38,180 nucleotides of DNA from Chitinophagales bacterium (GTDB lineage Bacteria > Bacteroidota > Bacteroidia > Chitinophagales > UBA2359), in NCBI GenBank assembly GCA_020629005.1, contig JAHDEE010000041.1, positions 1-38,180 of the forward strand. Direction: 5' to 3'. Both the position numbers and the translations under genes were made by a program. Below the pieces are notes generated by a model. It worked only from the letters and a program-made list of their open reading frames with translations. It ran no database searches and was not told the DNA's origin. Positions 1,626 through 30,954 of this stretch are shown one piece after another (the stretch's first letter is position 1; each line of letters begins with the position of its first letter).

Positions 1626-3569
1626 TTACTCTAACTCGGTAATTCCAGTACTCAGTAGGTAATCATATGTGTTGTCGTAATGTTTGGGGTTTCTTGTGCC
1701 ATCTGATTCTGATCCTATTGGTACGAAAATGACAAACCCTTCTCTTGCTCTCGTAAGTAGGACTCTATACTTGTTCTTGATGAATTGCTTTTTATCTTCC
1801 TTGCCAGTATTAGTCCACTTTGTACCTACAAATCCGTGATATGACCAACCATCAGCAGTCATTCTAAAGTCATTACCCCAACATAAACCTACCCAATCAA
1901 GTTCAAGGCCCTGAACTGCGAATTCAGTTGCGGGCAACTCTAGGAACGAAGATGACCTTATGTCGGTCTTGTCTTTTAAGAACCAATGAACAACATCTAA
2001 TTCCAGAGTGACATCAAGGCCAAGTGGTCGCAATCTTCTTGCACCAGAGCTTGCAACTAAGCCAGATCTTCTGCTTCCTCTTGTTTTAGATTGCAAAAAC
2101 TTCTTGACTTTCTCCAGGTCTCTAGTAATATAAATGGGAAACTCTTTTAAGTCTTTTTCTAATATTTGCTTTGCTTCCTCGTTTCGTAACTCCAGAATTG
2201 ACTCAACCCAGTCTGATACTCTTTTAGCTTTGTAGGATCTTATGGAGACCTTGAGGTGTAAGGATTGGATTTCAGTTATGGACAAATTTACTGGCGCCTC
2301 TTCAAATAGCTTGTAATTGGCAATTGTTGACACGCCTTCTTTCAGTTCTGGGGAAACATAAATTTTCCAATCTTGGTACTTAGTTCGAATCGTTTTGCCC
2401 CATTCTGCTAATCCTGCTTCTCCAGTGTTGATCTCTTGTCCACTTCCAATCAGAGCAACTATAGCTGCCCAGTGGTCACTTCTGTTTAGAATATCAAATA
2501 GCATTTCGGCTTCGGAAAAGTCTCTTTTGAATTTTCTTTTGGAATGTTCTGCACTCCATGCTCTTTGCGCTTCGTCAAACAAAACTATCTTATCGGGAGG
2601 GATTTGATCGTTGTTGTGATAGAAGTCTAAAAAATGATGTACATTCTTCACAAAGGCGACCTCTCTTCTTGATTCTCCTATTGGGGTTCCAGTTCTTTCT
2701 GTATAGTCTTGAGCTAATGCTTCAGATAGAACTTTAATCAAAGGGCCGTTTCCTGAGAGAAAAATTCCTTTGCCTGAATTTTCATCAATGGAGTGAACTA
2801 TTTTTAATCCGGCTAATGTTTTTCCTGATCCCGGCACACCTGTTATAAAGCAGATTATTTTTTGATTGTGCTCCCTTGCTTCATTTATGGCCTTTATAAC
2901 TGAGTTAGTCGTCTCGGTAAGATTTTCTGACCCCGCATGTGACCTTGAGATTTCAGCTACATCTTGACCGGCAAACATATGTTGTGCCGCTTCAATGATG
3001 GTCGGTGTAGGTAGGTATTCGCTATTGTTCCAAATGGAGTAGTTTATGGGGGCCTTGGTCTCAGAATAAAATTCTACTGATTCCTTGATCACAGTTGAGA
3101 GGGTGTTATTATTCGCGAATATTGTTTGCTTTACATAGTCTTCGCTTTCGGACAAAAGGTTTTGAACTGAATCTGCATGTGAAGACCATACAATCGGAAT
3201 TATTTTCTTTTGAAAGGATTCTTTATGAAAATCCCTGAGGTCTAATGAATAATCTTCTACTTGGCGTATCGCTTCACTGTAGTATTTGCTTGCTTTGTCC
3301 TTAAACTCAATGACAATGATCAAATCTTGAGCAAGTAGAACTAAGTCAATTCTCTTAGCTCTTCTTGGAATTGGATACTCAAATATGAGCGTCCATTCTT
3401 CCGGCAGATGATGAAGATGCCTTTGCAAGTAGTCAAATTGATTCGCCCAAGAAACTCTTTGTTGTGAAAGTAGTTGGTGATTTGTTACCCCAAGAGATAA
3501 GTGCCCTACAACCGTTTCCTTCTTTATAGATCTCAATTCTCTAACGCTATTTGTATATTTTCCTGGCAA
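1626..3569 (-). CDS. PD-(D/E)XK-like nuclease fused to DUF2075 (Schlafen-like) DNA/RNA helicase
   Basis: A 647-aa protein. Residues about 58-110 show a nuclease-like pattern, E64...D75...E88-F-K90 with a downstream Q/E helix, as in restriction-type nuclease folds. Residues about 235-620 form a superfamily 1-like helicase of the DUF2075 type: Walker A GVPGSGKT (244-251), Walker B FDEAQ (331-335), the signature PATEFAVQGLELDWVG (546-561) and motif VI YRVLLTRAREG (601-611). The order nuclease then helicase suggests nucleic-acid cleavage or remodelling, and the decayed restriction genes next door suggest defence; both are inferences. The first possible start is TTG at 3567-3569 with no clear ribosome site; no ATG follows until deep in the protein. 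Base composition is more AT-rich than the genes to the right. Confidence 0.85.
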   Translation of the reverse strand: MPGKYTNSVRELRSIKKETVVGHLSLGVTNHQLLSQQRVSWANQFDYLQRHLHHLPEEWTLIFEYPIPRRAKRIDLVLLAQDLIIVIEFKDKASKYYSEAIRQVEDYSLDLRDFHKESFQKKIIPIVWSSHADSVQNLLSESEDYVKQTIFANNNTLSTVIKESVEFYSETKAPINYSIWNNSEYLPTPTIIEAAQHMFAGQDVAEISRSHAGSENLTETTNSVIKAINEAREHNQKIICFITGVPGSGKTLAGLKIVHSIDENSGKGIFLSGNGPLIKVLSEALAQDYTERTGTPIGESRREVAFVKNVHHFLDFYHNNDQIPPDKIVLFDEAQRAWSAEHSKRKFKRDFSEAEMLFDILNRSDHWAAIVALIGSGQEINTGEAGLAEWGKTIRTKYQDWKIYVSPELKEGVSTIANYKLFEEAPVNLSITEIQSLHLKVSIRSYKAKRVSDWVESILELRNEEAKQILEKDLKEFPIYITRDLEKVKKFLQSKTRGSRRSGLVASSGARRLRPLGLDVTLELDVVHWFLKDKTDIRSSSFLELPATEFAVQGLELDWVGLCWGNDFRMTADGWSYHGFVGTKWTNTGKEDKKQFIKNKYRVLLTRAREGFVIFVPIGSESDGTRNPKHYDNTYDYLLSTGITELE

Positions 3570-4496: not shown

Positions 4497-4560
4497 GTTT
4501 CTCTTTGTGCGTGCTGCTGACAGCTAATATACTAAACGCTTTGGTTTTGCCTCCCGTCTA

Positions 4561-4760
4561 CGCGCTGGACATGCGTCTCAAAATAGCCGCGGGCGAAACG
4601 GAACGAACTGCCCAGCCAGCTTAGTGACTGCCAGCCAATGCTGGCTCTGAGTATGCGAAGAGACGGCAGTGGCTGCGCAGGAACAAGCTGGATGGGTAGT
4701 GAGTATTAGTGGAGCACGGGTCTGCTGCCTCCGCGTGCCTACAGCGCTTCGCTCCAAATT
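4561..4760 (-). repeat. R200 repeat, copy C
   Basis: Read on the minus strand, it opens with ATTTGGAGCGAAGCG and closes with GGCTATTTTGAG followed by GTCCAGCGCG. Internal blocks such as CTTGTTCCTGCGCAGCC and TGCCGTCTCTTCGC match copy B closely. It starts 31 nt after the stop of the flippase gene, on the same strand. Confidence 0.85.
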
Positions 4761-4791
4761 TTAGAACATTGACTAATTGCAGATGTGCGGC

Positions 4792-6279
4792 TTATTTTTT
4801 TAGTTTGGCAACAAGGCTACTTAGTACTGCATTGGCATCGGGTACCAGTTTGAGGCTGAGCATGGGAAGCACGAACAGTATAGCGCAAAGCATAGACTGC
4901 AAGATGATATTGGGTATGGGCTGGGAGAGGTCGGGTACGAGTTGGAGAGTGAAGTAGACGGCGATGGCCAATAGAATGAGCAGCGGGGTGCGGGCCTGGA
5001 AGGGTTGGAAACGAAACTTCCAGAAGATGAAAAGAAAGCGGATGGCATTGAACAGGAATACGCTGATGGCTGTGGCGATGGCGGCACCGGTCAATCCGTA
5101 GATTGGGATGAGGATCCAGTTGCTGGTGAAGGTGAGCAGGATGAGTAATAGTATGAGCGGAAGATTCCATTTGTAATAGGGTGATGTGACAATGATCTCG
5201 GTGTTGATACCCATCATCATGTCGAATACTTTGGCGAGGCCGATGAAAAGGATGACGTACTTGCCGGGTCGGTATTTATCGCCATTTGGCATGAGGTCGA
5301 ACAGGCTATCGGTGTTGATCCAGATGAGCAGGAAGATGAGGCAGCCTGCGGCTAATTGTACCAATGCCGTGCGGGTGTAGAGTTCGTCTATCTTTTGGTA
5401 ATTTTCGTCTTTCCAGGCATCGGCAATTACAGGGATGGTGATTTGGCCCAATGCTCTGCGCGGCATTTCGATGACCGCGCAGATGTAGAAGGCTACGCTG
5501 TAAATTCCACTGGCGGCCAGACTCTCCCAGGAAGCCAGCATGATCATATCGATTTGGTTTTGCAAGATGGCCGCGCCGCTTATCAGTGCTGTGAAGAGCG
5601 AGAATTTCATCATTTCCGGAAACAAGTCGCTTTTGAAAACGGTGCTTCGGGGTTTGATATAGAGCTGGCCCATGCTGGCCAGGTAGAGGAGCATGAGCAG
5701 GGCGATCAGACCAAAGTTGATCACATAACTGAGCACCATTCCATCTAAGGAAATGAAGTGCAGCCCATAGAGAAGGGCTGCGATTCCGAAACCGATACGT
5801 AATACGAGATCGCGAAATAGATTGGGAATTACGATGCGCTTAAGGGAGCGGGTGAAGGACTCCAGAACATTGAAGAGCAGGAAGCAAGCCGCTATTGGTA
5901 TTGCATAATAGATATAGTCGACAAGCAAGGGTGATTTGTCGATGAACCAGTTGACGATTTTTTGATTGAAGAGGAGGAAGAAGGCTGTACAGATTGCGAA
6001 ACCAACCGCCGCGATGCTTAGCCCTGTGAAAAGTATGCCGCCGTATCCTTCTTCTTTCTTGTTGAAGTATGGGAAGTATTTGACGACTGTGGTGATGGCG
6101 CCCATTTGGGCTATGGCTGCGAAGATGGATACCAGTGCACCTTTGAGTACATTGACCAGGCCGATCTCCTCTGGCGAAAGGAAGAGCGGGAAAATGAATA
6201 GCATATTGACAAAGGCGATGGCAATTCCCAGATAGGAAATGATGACGCTCTTGATGCTTTGTCTGATGATGACACCCAA
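4792..6279 (-). CDS. Polysaccharide flippase (Wzx/MATE-like, MOP superfamily)
   Basis: A 495-aa polytopic membrane protein with about 12-14 hydrophobic segments from residue 10 to near the C-terminus, the usual size and layout of oligosaccharide-repeat-unit flippases of the MOP exporter superfamily. Such proteins move lipid-linked sugar units across the inner membrane. Supporting signs are the N-terminal stretch SVIISYLGIAIAFVN and the mid-protein DMIMLASW (family-like helix 7 region). It starts at ATG 6 nt after the methyltransferase stop, so it is probably co-transcribed with that gene and the GT2 and YfhO genes upstream. Substrate is unknown. It is followed by R200 copy C. Confidence 0.85.
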   Translation of the reverse strand: MGVIIRQSIKSVIISYLGIAIAFVNMLFIFPLFLSPEEIGLVNVLKGALVSIFAAIAQMGAITTVVKYFPYFNKKEEGYGGILFTGLSIAAVGFAICTAFFLLFNQKIVNWFIDKSPLLVDYIYYAIPIAACFLLFNVLESFTRSLKRIVIPNLFRDLVLRIGFGIAALLYGLHFISLDGMVLSYVINFGLIALLMLLYLASMGQLYIKPRSTVFKSDLFPEMMKFSLFTALISGAAILQNQIDMIMLASWESLAASGIYSVAFYICAVIEMPRRALGQITIPVIADAWKDENYQKIDELYTRTALVQLAAGCLIFLLIWINTDSLFDLMPNGDKYRPGKYVILFIGLAKVFDMMMGINTEIIVTSPYYKWNLPLILLLILLTFTSNWILIPIYGLTGAAIATAISVFLFNAIRFLFIFWKFRFQPFQARTPLLILLAIAVYFTLQLVPDLSQPIPNIILQSMLCAILFVLPMLSLKLVPDANAVLSSLVAKLKK

Positions 6280-10443: not shown

Positions 10444-10571
10444 GCCTAAAATCCTACTAAACACTTAATTGCAGCCATAAGATGGCCGTTTCCAGGAGCG
10501 CTTTAGTCAACTTGGCACTCTTTTGGTCGTTTATCTTAATGCATAGCGAGCAATCCGTTGATTTATTGGTA

Positions 10572-10733
10572 GTGCCTTGGGACATAATTAATGGATAGGT
10601 TAGGTGAGCTTATCTTTTTGCCAATCGAGACGCGAGGATGGAGTATAGCCTTAGCTACATGACAGACGAGCAACGAAGAGTGGCAGAAATAGAAGCCATC
10701 TAAACTGTCCATTAATTAGGTCCCAAGGCAGTA
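10572..10733 (+). repeat. PAL hairpin element, copy 1 (covarying structured repeat)
   Basis: A 162-nt imperfect palindrome. The outer arms, beginning TGCCTTGGGAC at 10574 and mirrored up to 10731, are nearly complementary over about 33 nt. The inner core (10607-10698, 92 nt) runs from GAGCTTATCTTTTTG to CAGAAATAGAAGCC and continues the stem. A small TAGC-CTTA-GCTA hairpin lies in the apical region. The core is 81/92 identical, without gaps, to the core of copy 2 at 27687-27778, while the outer arms share no sequence with that copy. It lies between divergent genes, upstream of both. The strand is arbitrary. Confidence 0.85.
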
Positions 10734-10788
10734 GGTATATGTGGAAGGCTATGCGATTGCCTATTGGATTAAAGGGCTCAGGATATAT

Positions 10789-12879: not shown

Positions 12880-15006
12880 ATGATTAAGCTCAGTCGACTC
12901 CTTTTGTTTTGTTCCTGTCTGCTTTTGGCTTTGCAGCTTCAGGCACAAGAAACCGCTGCGGACCCCAATGCTGAAGAGCGCCAGAAGATCTGGGATGCCG
13001 GTGGAGCCGATTTCGAACTTTCCCAGGTTCCGGAGCAGTGGCTGGAAGAGTCCAAAGTGGTGCTCTCCGATCTGTATCTCTACAATTTTATTGTTCCCGA
13101 AGCCGAGCCGGTTTACTCCTACGAAATGGTACGCCGAAGAGTTAAATTACTCGACAAAGCAGCAGTGGAGGAGTATTCAGAACTGCATTTTCCGCAAGAT
13201 GCCTTAGTGGGGATCAGGGTGGAAAAGCAAGACGGAGAAGTAACTTATGTAGAAGCTGATTCCGCAATACCCTATGCCGAGGAGGTCGTCACCTCTGCGG
13301 ATGAACGTCTGGAACTGGGTTACTTTAAGTACGCAATTGCAAATCTGGCCGAAGGCGATGTCTTGGACTTTTTTTACCGAAACAAGCTAACTTACAACAA
13401 CGAGTACTTCCAGATTTCCGAACCAGTTACTCAGCTCATGGCCTGTGATCTGCCGGTGGTAAAACAGAAAATCAGATTCGAATTGCCGGAGCAGGCCTGT
13501 CTCAATTTTGGTAGCTACAACGGTGCAGCAGAAATCCAGGAGGTGGAAGATTGCCCAAATAAGCGATGTTTTGAACAGGTAGATACCATGCGGGCGGTTT
13601 ATGAGGAAGACCTCTGGGACTATCCTTACCGCTCGGAGCCGCTGGTCAAGTTTCAGGCATTTCGATATGCCAGCGACTTCGCGCTTGACCTTTCTTTCTT
13701 GTTCCTCGATGCCAAACAAATTCCCAAATCTTCCATCAGCAAGAAGGAGATTTCGACTTACTTCGATGAATTGGTGGAACCCGACTACTCGATGCGACAG
13801 GTGGTTAAAGACATCGTAGATTATGTGGAGCGACAGCATACCGAGGTCAAAAGTCCCGGCCAAAAAGCTTCCCTGGCCTACTACTATTTCCGGCACAAGT
13901 TCCTCTTTGATGAAGCCGCTTTTGGAGAGGAGCTCACGGATGAAGGCATCTCCGACGCCACTTTTGTGAGCATCATGAAGCTGGCTCTACAGCGCCTTAA
14001 CGTGCCGCACGAATGCATCATTGCGATGCCTGTTTCCAGTGGTGTGCTGGAAGAATTATTGCTGCATCAGGAGCTGGTTTACCTGATCGAAGTCCCGGAT
14101 TCCGACTTCAAATATTTGTTCAACTTTGATGCCTACACCAATGCCGGTGATCTCTATTATACTATGGAAGGAGCCGATGCTTATCGCGTCTTTGGCGAAG
14201 GCCTTCACGATCTCGAACTGCCCATCAGCGAGGCAGAAGACAATGTAACGGAAGAGTTCAAGATGCTCACGTTGGATGAAGACCTGAAAACGGTACACAT
14301 GATTCGAAGAATCGAACACAAAGGCCACAACCGACAAAACGATTGGCCGGTGGTGCTCTATGCGGAGGACTACCATAGAGAGTATACAAAGCAGCCAAAA
14401 AAGAAACGCAAGAGCCGCAAGAAACGTAAGCGGGAGCAGGCCTATCAGGCCATGTTAGACCAACAGGCAGAGGAAATGTCCAGGGAGCGAGACCTCTACA
14501 TGAAGGACGAAACCATGGCCGAAATGCAGGGGACAGTGGAGAACTACAAGCCCATAAAGATTCTCTCCCATGGTCGCTCACACCAGTCTCCCGTGCTCGC
14601 ATACGTGCAGGAATTTGACATCGTCGACTACATTCAAAAAGCGGGCAACAACTATCTGATAGACATCGGAAAAACGATCGGCAGTCAGGTGGAAATACTC
14701 GAGGAAGGCAAGACCCGCAGCAAGGACATTCGTATGCCCTATGCCCGAACTTTCCGCAGTGAGGTGAAGCTCAAGATCCCTGAAGGTTACTCTGTGGAAG
14801 GCCTGGAATCACTCAATACCTCCGTCGCAAATTCAGCTGGACTGTTTACCGGCACAGCGGTACTGGAAAAGGGCTACCTCAAGATAAACACGGAAAAGAA
14901 ATACCTCAAAGCCTTCCTGCCTAAGGAGGACTGGCCATTGATTTTGGATTTCCTGGAGGCTGCGTACAATTTTACGCAGCAGAAGGTGGTTCTAAAACCC
15001 AATTAG
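12880..15006 (+). CDS. Exported DUF3857-like protein with a degenerate transglutaminase region
   Basis: A 708-aa protein with a clear signal peptide (LLLFCSCLLLALQLQAQ, then ETAADP). Residues about 60-270 resemble DUF3857, as in the upstream gene. The region that should hold the transglutaminase active site is recognisable by position (KASLAYYYFRHKFLFDE, then SDATFVSIMKLALQRLNVPH), but the GDCKG block is replaced by SDATF and there is no clear His/Asp pair. An unusual basic insert (KQPKKKRKSRKKRKREQ, about residue 505-522) interrupts the C-terminal part. I infer an enzymatically inactive paralogue working with the 10789 gene, perhaps as binding partner or scaffold. R200 copy A begins 87 nt downstream. 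Confidence 0.75.
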   Translation: MIKLSRLLLFCSCLLLALQLQAQETAADPNAEERQKIWDAGGADFELSQVPEQWLEESKVVLSDLYLYNFIVPEAEPVYSYEMVRRRVKLLDKAAVEEYSELHFPQDALVGIRVEKQDGEVTYVEADSAIPYAEEVVTSADERLELGYFKYAIANLAEGDVLDFFYRNKLTYNNEYFQISEPVTQLMACDLPVVKQKIRFELPEQACLNFGSYNGAAEIQEVEDCPNKRCFEQVDTMRAVYEEDLWDYPYRSEPLVKFQAFRYASDFALDLSFLFLDAKQIPKSSISKKEISTYFDELVEPDYSMRQVVKDIVDYVERQHTEVKSPGQKASLAYYYFRHKFLFDEAAFGEELTDEGISDATFVSIMKLALQRLNVPHECIIAMPVSSGVLEELLLHQELVYLIEVPDSDFKYLFNFDAYTNAGDLYYTMEGADAYRVFGEGLHDLELPISEAEDNVTEEFKMLTLDEDLKTVHMIRRIEHKGHNRQNDWPVVLYAEDYHREYTKQPKKKRKSRKKRKREQAYQAMLDQQAEEMSRERDLYMKDETMAEMQGTVENYKPIKILSHGRSHQSPVLAYVQEFDIVDYIQKAGNNYLIDIGKTIGSQVEILEEGKTRSKDIRMPYARTFRSEVKLKIPEGYSVEGLESLNTSVANSAGLFTGTAVLEKGYLKINTEKKYLKAFLPKEDWPLILDFLEAAYNFTQQKVVLKPN

Positions 15007-15093
15007 TACAAGCCGTCTCATTTGTCCGCAAATCCAATGATTCGACAGCGGCTAATTCCATGTTTCGGCACAAAGGCTATAATGACGTTTCCT

Positions 15094-15291
15094 ATTTGGA
15101 GCGAAGCAAATTCATTCGCGTTGTCGGTGTACCCGTGTTCCGTTATTATTCGGCAGCCACCAGCTTGTTCCGCCACACTGCCTGTCGTCTCGCCTCAGGG
15201 CGAGCCACCATGCAGCGGGCTCCACTGGCGCTGGATGTCTACCTCATACCACTTCACCCGGGGCTATTTTGCACTTTCTGTCCACCGCGCC
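15094..15291 (+). repeat. R200 repeat, copy A
   Basis: It opens ATTTGGAGCGAAGCAAATTC and closes CGGGGCTATTTTGCAC then TGTCCACCGCGCC. The internal blocks CTTGTTCCGCC and TGTCGTCTCGCCTC align with copies B and C. It lies 87 nt after the stop of the 12880 gene, on the same strand. Several open frames cross it, but they are not conserved between copies. Confidence 0.85.
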
Positions 15292-15395
15292 AAATGGGGA
15301 AGGTTACGTGCTTCCTAATCTTCCAGACTTAAGACCCAGGCGCTGCCTCTCTCAATACCCTATTCTCCTTGAGTTAAGACTTGGGCAAGAGATCT

Positions 15396-27340: not shown

Positions 27341-27360
27341 ACCTTGAACACATCATTTTT

Positions 27361-27566
27361 ATTTTTGGAGCGAAGCGCAATTCCTTCGCAGATACGGCTT
27401 GCCTGCTCTTCGCTATTATGAGCAGCGCATCAGCCTGTTCCTGCTCAGTGCATGCCGTCTCTCCGCAAGCTCCGAGCCCGTCATGCACTGGCAGTCACGC
27501 ACGGCTGCTACACCACTCATAGCCGCTGCGATCAGGGCTATTTTGAACTGTGCGTCCACCGCGCGC
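27361..27566 (+). repeat. R200 repeat, copy B
   Basis: It opens with TTTTTGGAGCGAAGCGC and closes CAGGGCTATTTTGAAC then GTCCACCGCGCG. The internal blocks CCTGTTCCTGCTCAG and TGCCGTCTCTCCGC are shared with copy C, and AGCTCCGAGCC corresponds to similar blocks in copies A and D. It lies 20 nt after the comA stop, on the same strand. Confidence 0.85.
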
Positions 27567-27649
27567 CTTTTCAAATTGCCTTTGTTCGGTCCCGAGTCAG
27601 CTAACTTGCACCACTTGCGTTGTTGTATCTATCTACCAATACTTGACTA

Positions 27650-27815
27650 CTAGTGCTACGTAAACAAAGTATGTGACACCTTTAAGGAGCTTATCTTTTT
27701 GTCAGCCTAGGCGCGAGGATGGAGCATAGCCTTAGCTACGTGACTGACGAGCAACGAAGGATGACAGAAATAGAAGCCCTTAAAGGTGTTGCGAATTTCG
27801 TTTGCGTAGCACTAG
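27650..27815 (+). repeat. PAL hairpin element, copy 2 (covarying structured repeat)
   Basis: A 166-nt imperfect palindrome. The outer arms (CTAGTGCTACGTAAAC... and its mirror ...GTTTGCGTAGCACTAG) are complementary over about 37 nt with mismatches, and the innermost arm ACACCTTTAAG is perfect. The inner 92-nt core at 27687-27778 matches copy 1 ungapped at 81/92 positions. It sits between comA with its R200 copy and the convergent epimerase gene, 30 nt from the epimerase stop. The strand is arbitrary. Confidence 0.85.
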
Positions 27816-27822
27816 TGCTGAG

Positions 27823-27843
27823 TACTTCGTTTGCATAGCACTA
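27823..27843 (+). repeat. Third copy of the PAL copy 2 arm-end sequence
   Basis: The 21-nt segment here (core GTTTGCATAGCACTA) repeats the right arm end at 27794-27814 (GTTTGCGTAGCACTA) in direct orientation and, inverted, the left arm end at 27651-27671. It ends one base before the epimerase stop codon. It suggests duplication at the element border or slippage. Confidence 0.7.
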
Positions 27844-27844
27844 A

Positions 27845-28846
27845 TTAAGATTTTCGCAATCGATCCATAATGTCTCGCTCTCTTTCCAGGCTTATTGCCC
27901 CATTCTTTGGGTCGGCTTCCTGCCATGCTAATTTCACTTGATAGAAATCCAGCAATCTGGCGGTGGTTTCGGCAACGCTGCTGAGTTTAAGTCCGAAGTC
28001 CTCCTTAATTCTCTGATTGTCCATCACCAGTACATCTTCGGATAGCCAAAGTGGAAGACTGGTCCATTCGTTTAGCTCTTCACGATCAAAACCGGCCTTG
28101 TCAATATTGACAAGTTGAGGCTTTCTACCTGACTGTTTCATAACTTCCTCAACAAAGGCGGACAATCCTACATTGTAACTATTGCCATTGTACACTTCAT
28201 GCTTATGATCGCTGTCGATGCTTCGAATTAGCATTGCTGCAAAGTCATCCACATCCGAATAGGAAACGAGATTTCTGCCTTCTTCAGGAATTAGCATAGC
28301 ATCCTGTGTAAGTACCCGGTGAAACCAATGATAAAGCCGGTTGGTATAGTCATAGGGTCCCACAATAAGGCCGGGTCTCAGAATGATCTTGTCCAGCCAA
28401 TTCTGAGACAGCAGAATACGGTCGCACTCAGCCTTTTTTTCGTTGTAGCTTTGGAGACTCTCTTCGGCGGCTTGTTCCGGACTACATTCAACCGTTATGC
28501 CATCCTCAGATATGGGCACTTCATTGGAACCGTCCAGGGCGTAGGAGCTGCCAGTCGAAACGAGCACATATCGCCCAACTTTACCCTTTATTTCTTCCAG
28601 TTGCTTTCTAAAGGGTAGGGGATAATAACAACAAATGTCCAGGATGCAGTCCCATTCCTGCTTGGCAATCAAGCCCATGTCATCGGTGAGGCGATCGCCT
28701 TTGATTCTCTTGATTTCCGGAAATAGCTCAGGATTGGAGCGGCCACGATTAAACATGGTTATATCGTACTTGCCATTTCGTATCAGCTGTTCCATCAGTC
28801 GTCTTCCTACAAACTGAGTTCCGCCGATTACCAGTACTTTTTTCAT
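27845..28846 (-). CDS. NAD-dependent epimerase/dehydratase (extended SDR family)
   Basis: A 333-aa protein. The N-terminal VLVIGGTQFVGRRL is the nucleotide-binding GxxGxxG loop and LVSTGSSYALDG the strand with the catalytic serine region. The usual YxxxK appears as YNEKK in SYNEKKAECDRIL, and LRPGLIVGPYDY follows. This pattern matches the large group of NAD-dependent epimerases related to plant CSP41 proteins. The substrate (nucleotide sugar or other) is not determinable. Its ATG overlaps the stop of a 40-aa upstream gene (ATGA), which implies coupled expression. It converges on the comA group, with PAL copy 2 between them. Confidence 0.88.
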   Translation of the reverse strand: MKKVLVIGGTQFVGRRLMEQLIRNGKYDITMFNRGRSNPELFPEIKRIKGDRLTDDMGLIAKQEWDCILDICCYYPLPFRKQLEEIKGKVGRYVLVSTGSSYALDGSNEVPISEDGITVECSPEQAAEESLQSYNEKKAECDRILLSQNWLDKIILRPGLIVGPYDYTNRLYHWFHRVLTQDAMLIPEEGRNLVSYSDVDDFAAMLIRSIDSDHKHEVYNGNSYNVGLSAFVEEVMKQSGRKPQLVNIDKAGFDREELNEWTSLPLWLSEDVLVMDNQRIKEDFGLKLSSVAETTARLLDFYQVKLAWQEADPKNGAISLERERDIMDRLRKS

Positions 28847-28965
28847 TTTGCGGTGTTTTGGTTATATGTGTTCGGGATTCGACGAATGGAATTGTTGTCC
28901 AGGTTTTCCAAGTAGTGAATTTCCTCGATGATATCCCGCATTGTTTGTGCCGCAAAACTAGCCAT
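28843..28965 (-). CDS. Small 40-aa protein coupled to the epimerase gene
   Basis: A 40-codon frame on the minus strand starts ATG at 28963-28965 and reads MASFAAQTMRDIIEEIHYLE and on to a polar tail (SIRRIPNTYNQN). It ends with TGA overlapping the epimerase ATG in the classic ATGA arrangement. The amphipathic helix (DIIEEIHYLENL) and the 4-nt overlap support a real gene. I do not recognise the family. It may be a small partner or a leader peptide that sets epimerase translation. Confidence 0.55.
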   Translation of the reverse strand: MASFAAQTMRDIIEEIHYLENLDNNSIRRIPNTYNQNTAK

Positions 28966-29382
28966 TTATAACATAGCTTTTGGCCAAGTTTCTAAGCAGT
29001 TTCCTCAATTGTCTTGGGGCAGAGACTTTGTCAGCATTTCCTTTTGATGGGAGAACTTATCGCAGAATCAATTAGGCTAAATGCGGAATAGGCTTTAAGG
29101 GATATTTTATATCTGTCGACTGATGATGCAAATTTAAAGTTGGCCTGAGATTGCTGAACCGCGGTGTAAGGAGAGATTTCGTTTTCTGTGGTCTTGCCCG
29201 CCCTCTGGTCATACATGCTGTATAATTGACTTGACAAACTAATCTGTTAAGTTCTTGAAGCCACTTGAACATCTAACAGTTAAGTTGTGAATGTATTCTT
29301 TAAGTTTATCTGTGTTTAGGATTCAAAAATGACGGGTGTCGTGTTACAATGCAGTGGTCTTCTCTGGTAGTTTTGGTTCGCT
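28966..29382. other. Non-coding stretch upstream of the small gene
   Basis: 417 bases without a convincing gene. Two overlapping minus-strand frames (29031-29237 and 29072-29272) are open, but they lack recognisable domains and clear starts. A hairpin-like inverted sequence CTGTTA...TAACAG with inner GTTC/GAAC lies near 29245-29280. This region likely holds the promoter of the small gene and epimerase, but no clear TAnnTTTG match was found. Confidence 0.4.
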
Positions 29383-29584
29383 TGCGCGGTGGGGCTTAGT
29401 GCCAGATAGCCCCGATGGTAGCGGAAATGGAGGTGCTGCACGAGGGACTGAGTGTGCCTGCAATGGGGGCTCGACCTTAGGAGAGACCACAGTGCAGGAT
29501 ACACGAAGCCCTCGGGCAGTGCCTCCATTGCAGCGGACAGCGGGTAGACCCTTAACGCGAAGGTATTACCCTTCGCTCCAAATC
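29383..29584 (-). repeat. R200 repeat, copy D (most diverged)
   Basis: Read leftward it opens ATTTGGAGCGAAGGG, contains ACCTTCGCG and GTCTCTCCTAAGGTCGAGCC, and closes ATCGGGGCTATCTGGCAC then CCCCACCGCGCA. The ends match copies A-C well and the middle only in patches. It starts 62 nt after the GT4 stop, on the same strand. Confidence 0.8.
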
Positions 29585-29646
29585 AAGACCCAATTTTTAA
29601 ACCATTTACTGATGTTGTTGATCCGCCGCTCTGTCCTTATTTGCGT

Positions 29647-30954
29647 TCAGTGGCCAAGTTGATCCAGGACTTTTGCCAATTCTTTGCTGGTGTTTCTGCG
29701 GCTGTACTTTTGATAATCCCGCGCCGGAAGTTGGAGCTTGCCTTGTTGGAACTGTTTAAATGAACGCTGCAAGAAATGCTTGATCTCTTCTTCTTGTTCG
29801 AAATCAAATACCTCGCCTGCTTTCATCTCGCTGATGATTTTGGCGGCATCCCCTTTGCTGTGGCCGATGCCAAGCACGGGCCTTTGGCAGGGTAGGTACT
29901 CATAAACCTTGATGGGAATTCTACCTTGCGAATTTGGAGCATCATTTACCAAAAGGAGTAGTAGCTGTGATTGCGCGGCGACTCGAATGGCCTCCGTATA
30001 AGGCATGTGGTCGATTTTTTGCAAATGCCGGGAAAGGCCAGCTTGCTCAATTGAAGCAAAGATGCTGTAGTCGGTTTTTCCCACAAAGCGAATTTGCAGT
30101 TGCTCGTTGAACTGTTTGTTTTCCTGACACAATTTGGCGAGTACTGTCCAGAGTGCTTTTGGGTTTCGATCTTTGGTCACGGTGCCGATATGTGCGATGC
30201 TGAATCGCTGGTCCAATGCGGTTCGATTGAATCCAAAATCCGCATCATCAAAGCCATTGGTGACCACTTCCACTTTGCTGCCACGAATTTCCGCGAGTTC
30301 TTCCGCCCAGGTCCAACTTACAGTGGTGACTGCATCTGCCGTTTGTAGAACCTGTTTCTCCAGTTGGTGGTGTTTGGCATCGGCCCTCTTGCTTAGCTTG
30401 AGTTGATTATAGAAGTCGATATTGGTCCAGGGGTCTCGGAAGTCCGCTACCCAGGGTATGCCGGTTTTGAGCTTGATAGCTTTGGCAATGAGATGCACGG
30501 TGTGTGGAGGGCCAGTGCTAAAGATGGCATCCACCGGCTGCTCTTCTAGATAGCGGAGCAGCGATTTCACAGCTGGGCCGACCCAAAATTTTCGAGCATC
30601 AGGAATAAATAGATTGCCTCTGACCCAGACTGCCAGACTCTGTAGCTTGCTGTTTTTCTTTTCCTCCTCTATGAAACCTGCCTGTACTTTTTCCTCTTTT
30701 TTGTAGCCAAGCAATTTTCGGTATGCATTATACGGTTCCCAGATTGGACAGTTGAGTACCTCAAGATCTTTGGGTACCTGAGCTACCAAAGACTGATCTT
30801 CCATAGGGTAGTGTGCATCTTTGGCAGTGAAAATGATGGGCTGCCAGCCAAAGTCGGGCAAATAATGAGCAAACTTGAGCGGGCGCTGTACACCTGCTCC
30901 TCCTGCCGGAGGCCAGTAATAGGAGATGATCAATAAACGTTTGCGCGGATTCAA
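29647..30954 (-). CDS. Family 4 (GT-B) glycosyltransferase
   Basis: A 435-aa GT-B protein. Its N-terminus LLIISYYWPPAGGAGVQRPL is the glycine-rich start of GT4 enzymes, followed by VWVADFRDPWTN-type sequence (WVADFRDPW) and the C-terminal donor-binding IKVYEYLPCQRPVLG with its conserved Glu. It likely transfers a sugar to a surface glycan or lipid. The only start giving a complete N-terminus is TTG (30952-30954), 3 nt after the pcm stop and in the same frame, so it depends on coupling with pcm. R200 copy D follows it. Confidence 0.88.
   Translation of the reverse strand: MNPRKRLLIISYYWPPAGGAGVQRPLKFAHYLPDFGWQPIIFTAKDAHYPMEDQSLVAQVPKDLEVLNCPIWEPYNAYRKLLGYKKEEKVQAGFIEEEKKNSKLQSLAVWVRGNLFIPDARKFWVGPAVKSLLRYLEEQPVDAIFSTGPPHTVHLIAKAIKLKTGIPWVADFRDPWTNIDFYNQLKLSKRADAKHHQLEKQVLQTADAVTTVSWTWAEELAEIRGSKVEVVTNGFDDADFGFNRTALDQRFSIAHIGTVTKDRNPKALWTVLAKLCQENKQFNEQLQIRFVGKTDYSIFASIEQAGLSRHLQKIDHMPYTEAIRVAAQSQLLLLLVNDAPNSQGRIPIKVYEYLPCQRPVLGIGHSKGDAAKIISEMKAGEVFDFEQEEEIKHFLQRSFKQFQQGKLQLPARDYQKYSRRNTSKELAKVLDQLGH

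Follow-up and report, generated by a model that had tools for sequence, protein, structure and literature searches.

The roughly 200-nt repeat R200, present four times in a Chitinophagales contig and abundant in the sampled part of its genome, is probably a Flavo-1-type hairpin element, non-autonomous and spreading through intergenic DNA. The window analysed here, 38,180 nt long, is one whole contig of a 6.89-Mb draft genome (456 contigs), and all four of its copies share the strand of the gene that precedes them (the gene at 12880-15006, comA, the flippase gene and the GT4 gene). From this arrangement, the initial annotation had proposed a 3'-UTR function or a transposition target at transcription termination sites. 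Over 1.27 Mb the strand preference is absent and the conserved fold lies on the other strand, and in our reading R200 is no 3'-UTR signal but an element whose presence next to gene ends is tolerated. What simple dispersal does not predict is the alternating orientation of neighbouring copies, which is also seen in a second genome of the genus.

Abundance, anatomy and fold of R200

An iterated nhmmer profile, run on 1.27 Mb of the genome taken in stretches, gave 134 matches, or about 105 per Mb and about 1.8% of the sampled DNA. This corresponds to about 700 copies per genome, some stretches having been picked for containing copies, with orientation playing no part in the choice. Of 47 unbiased contig ends, 11 fall inside R200, where about 2 would be expected. 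Gene calls come from a hexamer model that was trained on the same genome, not from curated annotation.

Table 1. R200 features of the window
Feature	Position	Strand	Context
Copy A	15091..15294	+	convergent gap after the 12880-15006 gene; next gene 15445 (-)
Copy B	27355..27568	+	T-run and TTTTGGAGCGAAGC at left end, variable left module, hairpin core, GGGCTATTTTG, variable right module; convergent gap after comA, next gene 27845 (-)
Copy C	4556..4762	-	between flippase gene (4792-6279, -) and 3912-4496 gene (-)
Copy D	29383..29586	-	after GT4 gene (29647-30954, -)
Flavo-1-like fold of copy B	27397..27543	-	hairpin core (limits approximate); RF01705 match 23.7 bits, E 0.015; folding energy in text
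'+-' pair B...D	27360..29586	.	GGAGC ends outward, one epimerase gene inside; example of the inverted-neighbour arrangement

Each unit consists of a hairpin core of about 145 nt between two borders. The left border is sharp, a T-rich run with TTTWGGAGCGA (WGGAGCGA) in which G, A, G and C are nearly invariant, and the right border is GGGCTATTTTG followed by about 20 variable nucleotides. TTWGGAGCGA occurs 94 times inside R200 and 6 times elsewhere, five of those six in genes; there are thus no vacant docking sites, and pre-existing sites lacking the core were discarded as an explanation of the placement. To the left of copy C, the window encodes a Schlafen group 3 helicase protein (1626-3569, minus strand) that matches the candidate defence family PDC-S41 (E 1e-242).

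The core is conserved as a structure. Across 70 copies, 42 of the 54 base pairs in the consensus fold vary on both sides; such two-sided changes fill 891 cells, where shuffles give 297, and the signal is lost when the pairing partners are slid by one column. In the core stem, 123 cells would pair as G-U on the strand opposite to that of the initial annotation (and read A-C on the other), whereas 29 would do so on the annotated strand. All four window copies also fold better on this opposite strand, by 11-19 kcal/mol; for copy B the energies are -67.8 kcal/mol on the minus strand (z -3.9) and -56.3 kcal/mol on the other. It follows from the wobble asymmetry and the folding that the selected form is a single strand, RNA or ssDNA, antisense to the preceding gene in the orientation first annotated.

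R200 and Flavo-1

Among 20 loci, nine R200-type sites match the Rfam model Flavo-1 (RF01705) on the opposite strand, with the model aligned over its full length (positions 1-76). The best of these scores 38.0 bits (E 1.6e-4) and copy B 23.7 bits, both below the gathering cut-off of 42 bits; under stricter filters the whole genome has no RF01705 match. Since the gathering score is not reached, we term R200 'Flavo-1-like' and do not file it as a member. On the same strand, the two have in common the basal stem and its internal loops (UAGCCccGAU...GCGGgA); they also share high copy number in Bacteroidota and the borders of flavobacterial Flavo-1 copies, a T-run with WGGAGC and a GGGGCTA, which lie outside the Rfam model. 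They differ in the linker between GGAGC and stem, about 32 nt in R200 but 5 nt in the flavobacterial copies, and in the apical part, which is much longer in R200. Judged by sequence and predicted fold, R200 is a relative of Flavo-1 that scores below the Rfam cut-off and has the same stem and borders.

Flavo-1 itself was found in 43 of 296 Bacteroidota genomes; it is abundant in Flavobacterium-like ones, and many have at least 15 matches. The literature gives it no function (PMC2864571; PMC9723704). In F. psychrophilum its matches lie sense, antisense and outside transcripts (PMC9723704), a mixed orientation to genes that resembles that of R200 here. Some Flavo-1 sites in Flavobacterium lie at the same place in many species, suggesting long retention, perhaps with a function, whereas R200 positions turn over. 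Around miaA in Flavobacterium (L224-L303), Flavo-1 occupies the same two places, one upstream and one about 1.7 kb downstream of the start, in about 35 and about 18 of 80 loci; the orientation is constant, '+' at one place and '-' at the other.

Turnover of positions and exchange of cores

The turnover is apparent from a congener, G001, sampled at about 0.7 of 5.8 Mb. In five of seven comparable gaps, just one of the two genomes has a copy; at the site of copy A, the gap measures 438 bp here and 11 bp, with no copy, in the congener. In the other two gaps both genomes have a copy, and the two resemble each other no more than random pairs do. Where synteny holds, copies are inserted singly and both flanks are collinear. 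Target-site duplications were looked for at R200 copies and not found.

Within this genome, the closest copies are 96% identical over 177 bp, and median identity is 77-81% within a genome versus 73% for the best cross-species matches. Pairs with core identity above 92% have left and right modules that agree at 0.60 and 0.62, compared with 0.56 and 0.56 in unrelated pairs, and the blocks common to near-identical copies are often nested around the hairpin apex. Given near-identical cores with unrelated end modules, the simplest reading is that hairpin cores may be exchanged among resident copies.

A second dispersed family shares the window with R200. It is palindromic, about 166 bp long, with ends CTAGTGCTACG.../...CGTAGCACTAG, and lies at 10570-10735 and 27649-27816. 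A profile matches it 66 times in the 1.27 Mb sampled here, as a raw count over both strands, and 41 times in 0.54 Mb of the congener; its identity between the two species is about 92%, and it was therefore apparently active recently.

Placement relative to genes

R200 copies are intergenic. Of those flanked by genes on either side, 99 in all, 28 lie in convergent and 13 in divergent gaps; in tandem gaps 26 run with the genes and 32 against them. Set against the length of copy-free gap, their density is highest for convergent gaps (about 3.1 per kb), intermediate for tandem ones (1.07) and lowest for divergent ones (0.45). One end lies at most 100 nt from a stop codon in 56 of the 99 copies. 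The GGAGC end is the nearer one, at a median of 56 nt versus 144 nt for the other end (p = 0.0009), and in convergent gaps it is closer to the stop in 21 of 28 cases (p = 0.003).

How does this bear on what was first proposed? The observation itself is confirmed in part. In slightly tighter limits than those of Table 1, copies A to D lie at 15094-15290 (+), 27363-27566 (+), 4759-4556 (-) and 29583-29383 (-). From stop codon to copy start we measure 87, 22, 32 and 63 nt for copies A to D, within 2 nt of the distances given before, and the shared strand stands. The chance of 1 in 16 attached to it overstates the case. Copies A and B sit in convergent gaps, in which a copy on any strand comes after the end of one gene or the other; this leaves C and D to carry the information, and the figure becomes 1 in 4. 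The annotation had called for a genome-wide tabulation of orientation and named an absence of bias as the result that would count against it, and this is what the tandem gaps of the 1.27 Mb give (26 same, 32 opposed, p = 0.51). Of the expected sense bias within 100 nt of stop codons, the closeness is borne out and the strand bias is not. The interpretation likewise finds partial support. A preference for gene 3' ends is visible in the gap densities, but these fit insertion or survival where no promoter is struck, making the targeting of terminators unnecessary.

Further scans fit no role as an intrinsic terminator or sense 3'-UTR element. Around copies B and C, whose gaps were the two scanned, no terminator-like hairpin with a T tract was found on the gene strand, and this, the strand counts and the opposite-strand fold led us to reject such a role. 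R200 copies show no bias to either replication strand as assigned by GC skew (45:50). A promoter of its own ahead of the folded strand was rejected as well: promoter-like sequence precedes 4 of 101 copies, compared with 155 of 770 gene-upstream regions, and is thus not enriched.

The main rival to a dispersing element is a structured regulatory or architectural RNA of Flavo-1 type made from the opposite strand, with an action in trans or, at operon ends, in cis, which we consider possible though rather unlikely. The strong covariation and the 123:29 wobble asymmetry would suit such an RNA, as would the recurrent sites of constant orientation in Flavobacterium, and genes within 4.5 kb on the RNA-5' side tend to point at the element (183 of 285 counts, which are not independent). 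The rarity of promoter-like sequence before the RNA 5' end argues against it, as do the lack of a strand preference in tandem gaps (32:26), the turnover of positions and the F. psychrophilum matches, which lie sense and antisense to transcripts as well as outside them (PMC9723704).

Neighbouring copies alternate in orientation

Adjacent R200 copies have the same orientation in 16 cases and different orientations in 70 (17:70, p = 8e-9, before one hit split at a 20-kb boundary was dropped). The pattern was found during exploration and then replicated in the congener, where the count is 2:27 (earlier 2:25). In 5000 shuffles that kept the gene layout, the split hit being removed, same-orientation neighbours averaged 56 with a minimum of 38, against the 18 of 115 observed. 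Alternation is limited to nearest neighbours and independent of distance up to 20 kb. We thus conclude that a constraint or process acts on neighbouring copies.

The two kinds of interval are not equivalent. Pairs with GGAGC ends outward ('+-') have a median spacing of 6.0 kb, those of the reverse kind ('-+') 11.5 kb (p = 0.004); '+-' copies come as close as 86 bp and can share one gap, whereas '-+' copies are never closer than 1.98 kb. Eleven pairs of copies each share a single gap, with inverted doublets among them, and the sole same-strand pair is a single copy split at the 20-kb cut.

Several origins of the alternation were tried and rejected. Gene layout does not account for it, as no shuffle went as low, and neither do contig ends, without whose copies the count is still 15:50. 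Local inverted duplication is contradicted by the members of '+-' pairs, whose similarity does not exceed that of copies drawn at random. If direct repeats were lost in a distance-dependent way, non-adjacent pairs at 10-20 kb should be depleted, which they are not (24:15). Flavo-1 neighbours in Flavobacterium are inverted in 10 of 10 cases, but these come from about three independent sites and are not a test of alternation there.

One reading with a modest chance of holding treats R200 copies as genome-wide, orientation-paired sites, each of which would need an inverted nearest neighbour, either as ends of a mobile unit or as anchors pairing across kilobases, with cores swapped and end modules specific to the site. 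A narrower version, which we regard as quite unlikely, makes the copies inverted ends of paired units, with '+...-' intervals of 0.1-15 kb being inserted or exchanged segments and '-...+' intervals the backbone. The alternation in both genomes and the tighter spacing of '+-' pairs speak for it, and reciprocal best matches in the congener sample are fewer for '+-' genes (7.1% vs 15.1%, p = 0.011). Contig-end copies have GGAGC facing inward in 38 cases and outward in 16, one congener site reads '+', secreted-protein gene, '-' where this genome has the '-' alone, and elsewhere in the congener two inverted copies exactly enclose a complete NsnABC anti-phage operon (L162:6012-9811, contig C105). 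Against it stand the single insertions in collinear flanks, the dissimilarity of '+-' pair members and the ordinary housekeeping genes in many '+-' intervals; single copies in collinear DNA and ordinary genes together make a simple cargo model insufficient. Defence genes were rejected as general '+-' cargo, with one operon in 118 sampled proteins versus none in 118. At L036:441-4525, two inverted R200 copies flank collagen-like secreted proteins that carry a Peptidase_S74 chaperone domain.

Comparison with known mobile repeats

No enzyme that mobilises R200 was identified. In this genome a link to Y1 transposases is suggestive, all three Y1_Tnp genes (L097, L098 and L099) having an R200 copy within about 650 bp. 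The link fails elsewhere: the congener has R200 but no Y1_Tnp match, and none of 20 flavobacterial Y1_Tnp loci has Flavo-1 nearby. A REPIN/RAYT-like identity of R200, with movement by a Y1 (HUH) transposase, seems to us unlikely. Like REP/REPIN sequences with their RAYTs (PMC3116915, PMC8049555), R200 forms hundreds of intergenic, strand-specific hairpins with inverted doublets and no target duplication. It is longer, however, with a unit of about 200 nt where REPINs have a palindrome of 20-30 nt, it has no consistent RAYT partner, it favours neither replication strand, and it alternates over kilobases, not only within doublets. MITEs are likewise small, non-coding and dispersed, at lineage-specific positions, but are defined by terminal inverted repeats and target-site duplications, neither of which was detected for R200.

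Discussion

Our preferred explanation for R200 remains a dispersing hairpin element. It would spread through a single-stranded hairpin, RNA or ssDNA, recognised by an enzyme acting in trans, while the core may also pass between resident copies. Copies would survive chiefly in gaps that contain no promoter, and their apparent tie to gene 3' ends would result from this survival. A separate constraint or process would then act on neighbouring copies and be seen as alternation. The two gaps occupied in both congeners and the recurrent Flavo-1 sites of Flavobacterium speak against dispersal. A sense 3'-UTR element of the preceding gene (terminator, stabiliser or processed sRNA) is hardly tenable: the four sense copies of the window and the GGAGC end near stops are outweighed by the 32 opposed copies against 26 co-directional ones in tandem gaps, the 13 found where genes diverge, a selected fold that belongs to the opposite strand, the gaps of B and C that hold no terminator-like hairpin with a T tract, and the orthologous gaps that have no copy. 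Four sense copies are no safe basis for inferring a 3'-UTR signal.

Finally, we would like to place R200 in the context of Flavo-1, a widespread Bacteroidota RNA family that has no known function and whose relative fills about 1.8% of the DNA sampled here. The borders, the strand-specific fold, the turnover, the apparent core exchange and the alternation of R200 turn it into a set of testable questions on dispersal, recombination and chromosome organisation.
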